Source: Emticicia sp. C21
GTDB taxonomy: Bacteria; Bacteroidota; Bacteroidia; Cytophagales; Spirosomataceae
Assembly (NCBI RefSeq): GCF_003418935.1
Contig: NZ_QVMT01000001.1
Coordinates: 846,063-910,062, forward strand
Length of the DNA stretch: 64,000 nt
Reading direction: 5' to 3'
Position 1 is the stretch's first letter; each line of letters opens with the position of its first letter. Position numbers and translations under genes: made by a program. This document shows positions 4,241 to 52,008 of this stretch, in pieces. The notes under the pieces are model-generated. The model saw only the letters and a list, made by a program, of their open reading frames with translations, had not been told where the DNA came from and searched no databases.

Positions 4241-4299
4241 CATTTTCATCTTATAGTGATTGATTTTATCATCTTGATACATTAAGATTAATCTTTACT

Positions 4300-4432
4300 T
4301 TAATATATTATTCCTACGGGATATTTGAAATTAATGATGTTATTTACTTCTACCGCTGCGGCGGCCGCCGCAGCGGTAGAAAGTAGAAAGTGGAGCAAGA
4401 TAACTTTAAGTCCCGTAGGAACGATATATTAA
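4300..4432. repeat. Family A palindromic element, copy A1
   Basis: Outer arms at 4300-4322 (core TTCCTACGGGAT) and 4410-4432 (core GTCCCGTAGGAAC) are imperfect inverted repeats carrying the A-family core TCCCGTAGGGA and the flanking ATATAT. In the other two copies (29846-30001 and 61735-61907) a second, inner pair of cores lies inside the outer pair. Here the inner pair is absent and a GC-rich palindrome occupies its place. The flanking ACTTCTACC / GGTAGAAAGT segment is shared with the linkers of the other copies. The element fills the gap between the convergent TPR-like gene and the GH2 gene. Confidence 0.8.
4348..4381. repeat. 34-nt perfect GC-rich palindrome inside A1
   Basis: The segment is a perfect inverted repeat centred between 4364 and 4365. 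The centre reads GCGGCGGCCGCCGC and contains a NotI-type octamer. It is the most GC-rich non-coding stretch in this neighbourhood and replaces the inner cores found in copies A2 and A3. The 11-mer GCGGCGGCCGC (4358-4368) recurs at 51753-51763. Confidence 0.9.
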
Positions 4433-4470
4433 AACTTTAAAATTTATTTAATTTAACAGATACATTATCC

Positions 4471-17061: not shown

Positions 17062-17135
17062 CGGGGTGTAGCGTAGCCCGGTATCGCGTCTGCTTTGGGA
17101 GCAGAAGGTCGTCAGTTCGAATCTGGCCACCCCGA
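17062..17135 (+). tRNA. tRNA-Pro (anticodon UGG)
   Basis: The acceptor stem CGGGGTG (17062-17068) pairs with CACCCCG (17128-17134), with discriminator A. The anticodon loop TTTGGGA carries TGG. D-arm (GCGTAGCCCGGTATCGC) and T-arm (GTTCGAAT) are complete. CCA is not encoded. Confidence 0.97.
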
Positions 17136-17140
17136 CACAC

Positions 17141-17227: not shown

Positions 17228-17269
17228 GGTCGTCAACGGTCCGCCGCTGCGGTTCGAATCTGGCCACCC
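17228..17269 (+). pseudogene. Broken duplicate of the tRNA-Pro 3' end with a 16-bp GC-rich insertion
   Basis: GGTCGTCA (17228-17235) and GTTCGAATCTGGCCACCC (17252-17269) reproduce consecutive bases of tRNA-Pro, from the variable loop through the T-arm to the acceptor. Between them is ACGGTCCGCCGCTGCG, absent from the intact gene. No 5' half precedes it. Such 3' fragments are the usual footprint of site-specific integration at a tRNA gene, or of a decayed tandem tRNA. No integrase is present. Confidence 0.75.
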
Positions 17270-17317
17270 TCTGAGTAACTGATAATGATTATTAGTTCAA
17301 TTTCGTCTTTAAAACCT

Positions 17318-32349: not shown

Positions 32350-32478
32350 ATAACGGTGAATAAATTCACCGGCTAAGGCAACAAAGGAACAAATTATATA
32401 TATACGCCGGACTTAAGTCCGGCTTTGTATGCAAAAAGACCTTTGTTGCTTTAGTCACCGAATTCATTCGGTGAACAC
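32350..32478. repeat. Family B palindromic element, copy B1
   Basis: A left hairpin (CGGTGAATAAATTCACCG, 32354-32371), a central perfect palindrome (GCCGGACTTAAGTCCGGC, 32406-32423) and a right hairpin (TCACCGAATTCATTCGGTGA, 32455-32474) are separated by arms CTAAGGCAACAAAGG and CCTTTGTTGCTTTAG that pair with each other. The whole folds as a branched cruciform. It lies in the 32019-32572 gap, which otherwise holds a weak CCTGA/TCAGG hairpin near 32200 and no gene. Confidence 0.9.
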
Positions 32479-35432: not shown

Positions 35433-36230
35433 ATGCATGAAAATATGAGTTCACATACAAAGAAAAATTTGTTCTCCGAGAAAATAGACGACTGGCTGAT
35501 TGGATTTAAAGATGGTGCCGACTTCCTGCTGTTATTCTTTAAAGAAACACTTAGTGGAAATTTTGAATTTAAAGAGTTTGTCAATCAGTGTTATCGTATC
35601 GGTAACAGTTCATTGCTATTAATATCATTAACGGGTTTTGTCACAGGTTTCGTATTTACCAAACAATCACGTCCATCATTAGAGAGTTTTGGAGCAACCT
35701 CATGGCTTCCTTCACTGGTAACTATTGCCATCATCAGAGCCCTTGCACCTTTAGTTACGTCTTTGATATGTGCAGGTAAAGTAGGGTCAAGCATTGGGGC
35801 AGAATTAGGCTCCATGAAAGTTACCGAGCAGGTAGATGCGATGGAGGTATCAGCCGTTAATCCGATTAAGTTTTTAGTGGTTACACGAGTGCTGGCTACA
35901 ACGATTACTATCCCTATTCTGTCTTTTTATTGTGGATTGATGGCCATGACAGGAGTATTTCTGAATGTAACTACCAACGAAGACACTAGTTTCCCGGCTT
36001 TTCTTGAGCAGGCATTTAATAGTATTGTTTACCTGGATTTATGGACAGCTGTCATCAAATCGGTGGCATATGGTTTTACAATTGGTATAGTAGGTTGTTA
36101 TAAAGGATACAATGCCACCAATGGTACTTTAGGTGTAGGTAAAGCCGCCAATGCATCGGTTGTCATGTCGATGTTTTTGATATTTATTGAAGAAGTATTT
36201 ATAGTACAGGTAACTAACTGGTTTAGATAG
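35433..36230 (+). CDS. mlaE: ABC transporter permease MlaE
   Basis: This 265-aa protein is the permease of the Mla phospholipid transport ABC system in the inner membrane. The first 12 bases could instead be skipped for a second ATG at 35445. MlaE/Ttg2B signatures are SLTGFVTGFVF, ICAGKVGSSIGAELGSMKVT and EQVDAMEVSAVNPIKFLVVT. About five to six membrane helices. It is first in the operon with mlaF and mlaD. A hairpin of family C lies between mlaE and mlaF. Confidence 0.92.
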   Translation: MHENMSSHTKKNLFSEKIDDWLIGFKDGADFLLLFFKETLSGNFEFKEFVNQCYRIGNSSLLLISLTGFVTGFVFTKQSRPSLESFGATSWLPSLVTIAIIRALAPLVTSLICAGKVGSSIGAELGSMKVTEQVDAMEVSAVNPIKFLVVTRVLATTITIPILSFYCGLMAMTGVFLNVTTNEDTSFPAFLEQAFNSIVYLDLWTAVIKSVAYGFTIGIVGCYKGYNATNGTLGVGKAANASVVMSMFLIFIEEVFIVQVTNWFR

Positions 36231-36340
36231 AATCATTGAGTGATTTAGTGAATGATTGATTTAGTAATTAGATAAAATCTGATACGCTTCAAATAATAAA
36301 ATTTAATCACTCAATCACACAATCACTCAATCACTCAATA
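36231..36340. repeat. Family C hairpin element, copy C1
   Basis: The left arm (AATCATTGAGTGATT and onward, 36231-36266) and the right arm (ATTTAATCACTCAATCACAC and onward, 36300-36340) are imperfect tetranucleotide-periodic inverted repeats of GAGTGATT/AATCACTC. The right arm ends 6 bp before the mlaF start. Confidence 0.85.
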
Positions 36341-40595: not shown

Positions 40596-40706
40596 AATTG
40601 AGTGAATGAGCGATTGAGTGAATGAGTGATTAAACTTCTAATCTAATCTAATCTATTCAATCACTCAATCACTAACTCACTCAATCACTCAATACTACCA
40701 ATCACT
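40596..40706. repeat. Family C hairpin element, copy C2
   Basis: The left arm (40596-40630) has tetranucleotide periodicity, ANTG with GAGTGATT-type super-units. The right arm (40655-40706) carries the complementary AATCACTC units. TAATC repeated three times (40638-40653) forms the loop. It ends 14 bp before the next start codon, the same position as C1. Confidence 0.88.
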
Positions 40707-42267: not shown

Positions 42268-42375
42268 GGGTGCACCCTAAAAAAGGAAATTTTATATATG
42301 AAAGCCGGACTTGAGTCCGGCTATGCAAGCAACATATTCCTTTGTTATTTTAGCCGGCGAATTTATTCGCTGAAC
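42268..42375. repeat. Family B element, copy B2
   Basis: A short left hairpin (GGGTGCACCC), a central palindrome (AGCCGGACTTGAGTCCGGCT around 42303-42322) and a right arm with CCTTTGTTATTTTAGCC and CGAATTTATTCG form the B layout. The left hairpin differs from other copies and the central palindrome has TTGA rather than TTAA at its centre. Confidence 0.85.
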
Positions 42376-51673: not shown

Positions 51674-51689
51674 TAGGGGCATTTTATAG

Positions 51690-51826
51690 TAACGGCGACT
51701 GAAGTCACCGCCTAAGATAACAACGGAATATTTTATATGTAAGCCGGACCGCGCGGCGGCCGCTTAAGTCCGGCGATGTGTGAAAAATACCTTTGTTTGC
51801 TTAGACGGCGACTTCAGTCGCTGATA
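51690..51826. repeat. Family B element, copy B4, with a GC-rich insertion
   Basis: Left hairpin CGGCGACTGAAGTCACCG, arm CTAAGATAACAACGG, central half-palindromes GCCGGAC (51743-51749) and TTAAGTCCGGC (51764-51774), arm CCTTTGTTTGCTTAG and right hairpin CGGCGACTTCAGTCGC follow the B1 layout. Between GCCGGAC and TTAAGTCCGGC, which are contiguous in B1, is the 14-base block CGCGCGGCGGCCGC (51750-51763). This contains the same 11-mer GCGGCGGCCGC as the A1 centre. Confidence 0.88.
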
Positions 51827-52008
51827 CTAATAGTAATAGTTCCATACAATCATTCCTTCCACACAATAATCAACCAAATCTTTCGTATGTTAGGTATCAT
51901 TTGCAAGGGTGAAAGGTAGATAAAATGATATTTTAACCTGCTAACCTTTTGCAACAATACACAAAAATGCTTACGTTTGCTTTAATATAACACCCTTTCC
52001 TCACCAAG

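Follow-up and report, generated by a model that had tools for sequence, protein, structure and literature searches.

A probable mobile element of 14-15 bp nested in repeats and tRNA genes of Emticicia

Why does the same 11-mer, GCGGCGGCCGC, stand inside two different repeat families of Emticicia sp. C21 (the source genome, G000)? In the window, the whole 64,000-nt stretch of DNA analysed here, it lies at 4358-4368, within a repeat of family A, and at 51753-51763, within the B repeat B4; the 4358 site being a palindrome, a further reading on the minus strand falls at 4361-4371. A first-pass annotation of this DNA considered such a coincidence between two families unlikely to arise by chance, and the counts bear this out. 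In the window, which has a GC content of 0.393, 100 dinucleotide shuffles gave a mean of 0.00 occurrences, and across the genome (6.64 Mb, 33 contigs) the 11-mer is found at 22 places, corresponding to 21 loci since the palindrome is counted twice, versus 0 in the reversed control. The same annotation described the centre of B4 as interrupted and those of B1 and B2 as contiguous; this was confirmed, exactly for B1 and with one mismatch for B2. It also took the 11-mer as the inserted block. The 11-mer does recur at the two positions, but the unit to which it belongs is a 14-15-mer. The relevant features of the window are the following.

4299-4433, unstranded: A repeat, a host; arms 4299-4321 and 4411-4433, 91% complementary
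4354-4375, unstranded: 15-bp form CGCTGCGGCGGCCGC on both strands, as two inverted copies that overlap and, with the host arms, make up the palindrome 4348-4381
17237-17251, minus strand: variant element copy CGCAGCGGCGGACCG, directly after GATTCGAAC
32406-32423, plus strand: uninterrupted centre of B1 (18-mer), a paralogous empty site
42304-42321, plus strand: uninterrupted centre of B2, one mismatch to the B1 18-mer, a paralogous empty site
51687-51829, unstranded: B4 repeat, a host; arms 51687-51733 and 51783-51829, 81% complementary
51743-51749, plus strand: half of the B4 palindrome left of the interruption, GCCGGAC
51750-51763, plus strand: 14-bp element copy CGCGCGGCGGCCGC, directly after GCCGGAC; the orthologous site in E. 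agri is exactly empty
51764-51774, plus strand: half of the B4 palindrome right of the interruption, TTAAGTCCGGC

The two copies in the A repeat and the host arms together make a perfect palindrome of 34 bp, which may have originated by templated symmetrisation after insertion. The variant copy at 17237-17251 cuts the T-arm of a fragment (17237-17275, minus strand) that by eye resembles the 3' part of a tRNA and lies ~100 bp downstream of an intact tRNA-Pro gene (17062-17136). At 36227-36339 and 40597-40693 the window also contains arrays of 7-8 bp units in inverted pairs (ATTGAGTGA / TCACTCAAT), which are free of the element; in the source genome, no other type of host carries it as often as arrays of this kind.

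The repeated unit and its settings

At the 21 loci the 11-mer is part of a near-constant 14- or 15-mer, mostly CGC(A)GCGGCGGCCGC, with a C directly before it. On this ground, and by the length test described below, the 11-mer was rejected as the unit in favour of the 14-15-mer. Six or seven settings can be distinguished among these loci (^ marks the insertion point): arrays built from AATCACTC-like units, which account for 12 sites, the A repeat with the junction CTAC^CGATATAT, the centre of B with the junction GGAC^TTAAGTCC, the settings CCTTCGAC^TCCGCTCAGG and GGCTTCGGC^TCCG, which may be related to each other, GCGAACGTC^, and a tRNA T-arm. Mismatch searches of the source genome brought out sub-types of the element, and its commonest forms end in GGCGGCCGC, GGCGTCCGC, GACGGTCGC, GACGTCCGC and GGCGACCGC. 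The family consensus is CG(N)1-2GCG-R-CG-K-Y-CGC, a GC-rich unit of 14-15 bp.

A search of the source genome with the pattern CG(N)1-2GCGNCGNNCGC returned 49 + 15 = 64 places, all in distinct contexts, versus 3 + 1 in the reversed controls. Variants of the kind GGCGGNCCG exist beyond this strict pattern, one of them being the minus-strand copy at 17237-17251. We kept 62 of the 64 places, the palindrome at 4358 accounting for two of them; the 15-mers at 1017201 and 1017283 of contig C1, whose flanks look tRNA-like by eye, were dropped before this count and that of the 170 copies used below. Stop-free stretches of at least 200 codons hold 7 of the 62 sites. From their sequences, and as a reading rather than a count, the hosts appear to be mainly repeats between genes and sometimes tRNA or transposase genes.

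Exact borders, empty sites and the target

We rejoined the flanks (13 + 13) of 170 copies from the four rich genomes, comprising 62 from the source genome, 54 from G033 (the genome of another Spirosomataceae genus), 42 from E. agri (G094) and 12 from BO119 (G074); these are part of the total in these genomes, and a few are probably chance matches within genes. For 69 of the 170 copies the rejoined flanks agreed with an uninterrupted sequence in at least 22 of 26 positions, as compared with 8 of 339 control cuts, in which 14 nt were removed elsewhere in the same flanks. Shifting both borders together by 1-2 bases lowered the mean match only slightly, from 23.5 to 22.2-23.4, and any change of the excised length reduced it to ~19-20. 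Since the match is lost at any other length, the unit measures exactly 14 or 15 bp and is accompanied by no target duplication beyond a one-base C ambiguity; the border itself is uncertain by 1-2 bases, mostly because base -1 and the last base of the element are both C. The 170 copies fall into 79 flank clusters. Within the hairpin CCCTCTCCCCAACTGTGGGGAGAGGG and its relatives the element stands at differing positions, and in the B repeat it is found either in the centre (L056, L258 and L266) or in an arm (L420 and L426); these differing positions look like independent events. On this sequence evidence, we regard precise insertion into many unrelated hosts as established.

Comparison with sister genomes supports the same view. 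Three sites of the source genome are empty in sisters by exactly 14 bp: that of B4 in the window, C23:614938, which lies in an array, and C6:53243, which lies in a tRNA-Tyr gene. At the B4 site E. agri is empty and retains the B repeat, and BO119 has no B repeat there; C23:614938 is empty in E. agri, and C6:53243 is empty in both E. agri and BO119. The element at C6:53243 falls within the T-arm of the tRNA-Tyr gene, part of an accessory tRNA array, and ARAGORN calls a tRNA-Tyr at this locus in both sisters and not in the source genome, which has a second tRNA-Tyr on contig C28. Absence in a sister could in principle reflect precise loss, but for C6:53243 the absence in two sisters favours gain. 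Other copies are shared: C6:53022 is common to three species, the variant copy at C3:154565 is common to the source genome and E. agri, and C28:188532 is probably common to E. agri as well, in which the corresponding stretch also matches a second place of the source genome. Because some sites are common to several species, not all of the insertions are recent. The orthologous stretches of L116, L094 and L089, and of L276, L277 and L280 for E. agri, showed too much divergence for scoring or did not contain the host.

The accessory array itself occupies ~53000-58100 of contig C6 (L294, L474) and is partly present in E. agri and BO119. Its tRNAs include Leu, Phe, Arg, Pro, Glu, His, Asn, Gln, Lys, Ile, Met and others, and two of its tRNA-like genes have the element in their T-arm.

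These empty sites also bear on whether the 14-mer was simply copied along with its hosts, the REPIN-like A and B repeats and the arrays, and spread by recombination between them. Several host copies do carry the element at the same position, in clusters of 18, 10 and 8 sites, so part of the copies may indeed be passengers of this kind. As an explanation of the family, however, such hitchhiking is improbable: it is at odds with 79 flank clusters and with different positions inside one host family, and it is largely refuted by the tRNA-Tyr gene, which is intact in both sisters and has gained exactly 14 bp in the source genome. The suggestion of the first-pass annotation that the block is a tiny mobile insertion instead agrees with the unrelated hosts, the exact junctions and the exactly empty orthologous sites, and we consider the element family very probably mobile. 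Of the two properties that the annotation would have looked for genome-wide, absence of the block from sisters was found at the three sites above, but a position at the tip of a palindrome is not general. Random scatter of the block, or its absence from every other family, would in that annotation's view have spoken against insertion; the copies do show scatter, but with a target rule, and many unrelated hosts carry them.

With regard to this rule, base -1 is C in 68 of the 79 clusters. Insertion appears to take place 3' of a C, mostly in AC and otherwise in CC or TC, so that the target would comprise only about two bases. The consensus base K covaries with target base -2. Over all copies, 53 of 69 elements with K = G have A at -2, 65 of 94 with K = T have C or T there, and 5 of 7 with K = A have A. 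When one random member per cluster was taken, K = G was found 21 times with A and 9 times with another base at -2, and K = T 11 and 36 times, respectively (p = 1e-4). The covariation over all copies is seen both for R = A (p = 0.004) and for R = G (p = 2e-11), and after splitting by genome and R it reaches p < 0.05 in 5 of 8 small tables. The correspondence is not one of Watson-Crick pairing. The covariation implies that the element may help to choose its target: either the target is chosen by the element sequence, or sub-types persist that are moved by enzymes differing in preference. If the element is mobile, it would provide a test system with a defined target rule and sub-types of different targets.

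Hairpins were the other candidate for a target, the first-pass annotation having proposed insertion or template switching at extruded hairpin tips. A perfect stem of at least 7 bp occurs near the junction at 9 of the 62 source sites versus 14 of 2480 random control positions. With one copy per cluster and controls placed in the same flanks, the figures were 2 of 79 versus 36 of 1250 (p = 1), and a test of insertion at the 3' foot of a hairpin also gave a negative result. Targeting to hairpin tips, positive in the first test and negative in the dereplicated one with nearby controls, was therefore rejected as a rule. In the arrays of 7-8 bp units, which make up the largest host class, the junction shows no local palindrome; where tips are hit, this reflects the hairpin nature of some hosts. 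The excess in the first test, together with the two window copies lying in mid-palindrome, might also suggest a binding or structural block that was grown repeatedly in hairpins by selection or template switching, with no mobility at all. We find this very hard to credit, as the tip enrichment is gone after dereplication and the 14-mer is identical, with exact borders, in unrelated hosts, a constancy that template switching does not explain.

The element itself can form a GCGR/YCGC hairpin, but its folding did not surpass that of shuffles in any of 4 variants. R and Y remain paired in the K = G class (G-C 37 and A-T 17 versus A-C 8); in the K = T class the two bases are mostly unpaired (A-C 13, A-T 2). 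Element pairs within 300 bp of each other are inverted in 11 cases versus 3 (p = 0.057), as counted on partial lists (60 source sites, 33 of 85 in E. agri, 10 of 18 in BO119 and, for G033, only contigs with several sites). Close neighbours are thus mostly inverted, perhaps because their hosts are inverted repeats. Examples are C1:510247/510372 and C19:14837/15007 in the source genome, and pairs on contigs C2, C4 and C12 of E. agri and C393, C402, C405 and C476 of G033.

Distribution among genomes and candidate routes of movement

The strict 14-mer CGCGCGNCGNNCGC has 32 copies in the source genome, 85 in E. agri, 18 in BO119 and 54 in G033, with 0 in the reversed controls, and 0-1 copies in each of six other Emticicia genomes. 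At least one match was found in 67 of 120 family genomes; such low counts mean little, because the reversed control is equally high in many of them. The form ACCGCGCGGCGGCCGC occurs in 3 of 296 genomes across the phylum, with 7 copies in the source genome and 1 in each of two others. Loci in other genera are mixed: several, from GC-rich genomes, fall within long open frames and resemble chance matches, and others are the same 14-mers after AC or CC. By eye, 14-mers lie in tRNA-like sequence of G032 and G087, where ARAGORN finds an intact tRNA-Ser and tRNA-Lys alongside, and in G055 a 14-mer is located inside an integrase-core transposase frame, with rve upstream (below the cut-off) and rve_3 downstream. 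Judged by these counts, the distribution among genomes is demonstrably patchy. If the element is indeed mobile, one genus spans strains with 0 and 85 strict copies, and dispensable tRNA genes serve as landing sites. An assembly or library artefact might be suspected, as the GC-only block contains the 8-bp palindrome GCGGCCGC, which is used in cloning linkers. Its presence in several separately sequenced genomes, with sub-types, and at orthologous sites common to different species makes this the least credible of all the explanations weighed.

A unit of 14-15 bp is too small for a gene and would have to be moved in trans; mobility together with a trans-acting enzyme, here left unspecified, is in our view probable. 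We propose more tentatively that a HuH/Y1-type enzyme of the IS200/IS605-like kind, acting in trans, would move the element through a single-stranded DNA step and insert it exactly 3' of a C without target duplication. Such a mechanism is favoured by the strand-specific targeting after C, the lack of duplication, the possible small hairpin and the element-target covariation. The main rival is an RNA-mediated copy-and-paste, in which a transcript of the unit would be inserted at the target and reverse-transcribed. A gene-less unit at high copy number and an orientation fixed relative to the target would suit this route, which one study discusses for GC42 of yeast mitochondria (PMC4478555). Yet C-specific insertion without duplication needs no RNA, and we rate the RNA route as unlikely. 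Should the family prove mobile, the question of how gene-less tiny repeats move would become directly testable.

Returning to the single-strand route, Y1 genes do adjoin some of the hosts. A B repeat flanks a Y1 transposase gene of 143 aa (L353, G000:C23:460419-463757), where the B repeat next to the gene contains a variant 14-mer and a strict copy is close by, and A-type sequences adjoin Y1 genes in L336, L337 and L338. Given these neighbours, the A and B families look REPIN-like. In L338 and L336 the A matches recur every ~201-203 bp, resembling a tandem array. Of the Y1 proteins, two were compared with models: both pass that for IS200/IS605, and both fall short of the cut-off for REP_Tyr_transpos. 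As for the element, a strict copy was found near only 1 of 30 Y1 loci (L353) and at none of the other 29, and the number of Y1 genes showed no relation to element copy number in 13 genomes, all of which have IS200/IS605-type Y1 genes (1-10 each). No element-specific enzyme was found, this census of 13 genomes showing no correlate. A bolder reading, which we put forward as conceivable and somewhat against the odds, is that of a complete 14-bp mobile element whose own K reads base -2 (G/A for A; T for C/T), which parasitises mobile REPIN-like repeats, and which would be the smallest mobile DNA known. If the element is mobile, the lower size limit for mobile DNA behaviour would be ~14 bp, and the unit would be among the smallest mobile DNA described.

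Relation to known small repeats

The small dispersed repeats (SDR) of Nostoc and relatives are the closest known system. They were reportedly described by Elhai and colleagues in 2008 as units of 21-27 nt nested in heptamer arrays and mini-transposons; they are said to belong to a cyanobacterial subgroup, with compensatory changes supporting structure in three families, and an RNA-mediated route has reportedly been proposed for them. The present element is likewise gene-less, very small, dispersed, nested in unrelated repeats that include short-unit arrays, and precisely inserted. Unlike the SDRs it measures 14-15 bp, only the removal of 14-15 nt restoring the host, and it differs from them in sequence, target rule and phylum (Emticicia, Bacteroidota). 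We know of no element-target covariation in SDRs. A search of the open-licence literature by sequence and by topic found no such element in Bacteroidota; strings of four variants occur in published papers that by title look unrelated. If the present reading is true, very small mobile repeats would extend to this phylum. For one cyanobacterial family, SDR5, precise insertion into HIP1 is described in a published study (PMC4390886).

REP and REPIN sequences are characterised as palindromes of 20-40 bp, one end of which bears GTAG or CGTC as an unpaired motif (PMC3733652), and as mostly intergenic, gene-less units for whose movement tyrosine transposases (RAYT) acting in trans are held responsible (PMC3116915, PMC3733652). 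The element resembles them as a palindromic, gene-less unit that appears to be mostly intergenic and would likewise be moved in trans. In contrast to them it is shorter, carries no GTAG or CGTC tag at its end and is itself inserted in REPIN-like repeats; it starts with CGC or CGCA and ends with CGC, and CGTC is internal and present in one sub-type only. The single Y1 locus of 30 with a strict copy, and the scores of the tested Y1 proteins against REP_Tyr_transpos, set it further apart.

IS200/IS605 elements duplicate no sequence when they insert 3' of a short target, which their internal bases read; they consist of two ends with subterminal hairpins plus a transposase gene. The present element appears to insert after a C, likewise with no duplication, but its target is only about two bases, and K covaries with base -2 in a correspondence that is not Watson-Crick; unlike IS200/IS605, 14 bp allows at most one small hairpin. 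A further parallel is provided by the GC clusters of yeast mitochondria, which are short, GC-rich, hairpin-forming mobile units in AT-rich DNA, much as is proposed for the Emticicia element; GC42 has 42 nt and is flanked by AG/ACT direct repeats (PMC4478555), whereas the Emticicia unit has 14-15 bp and is inserted without duplication.
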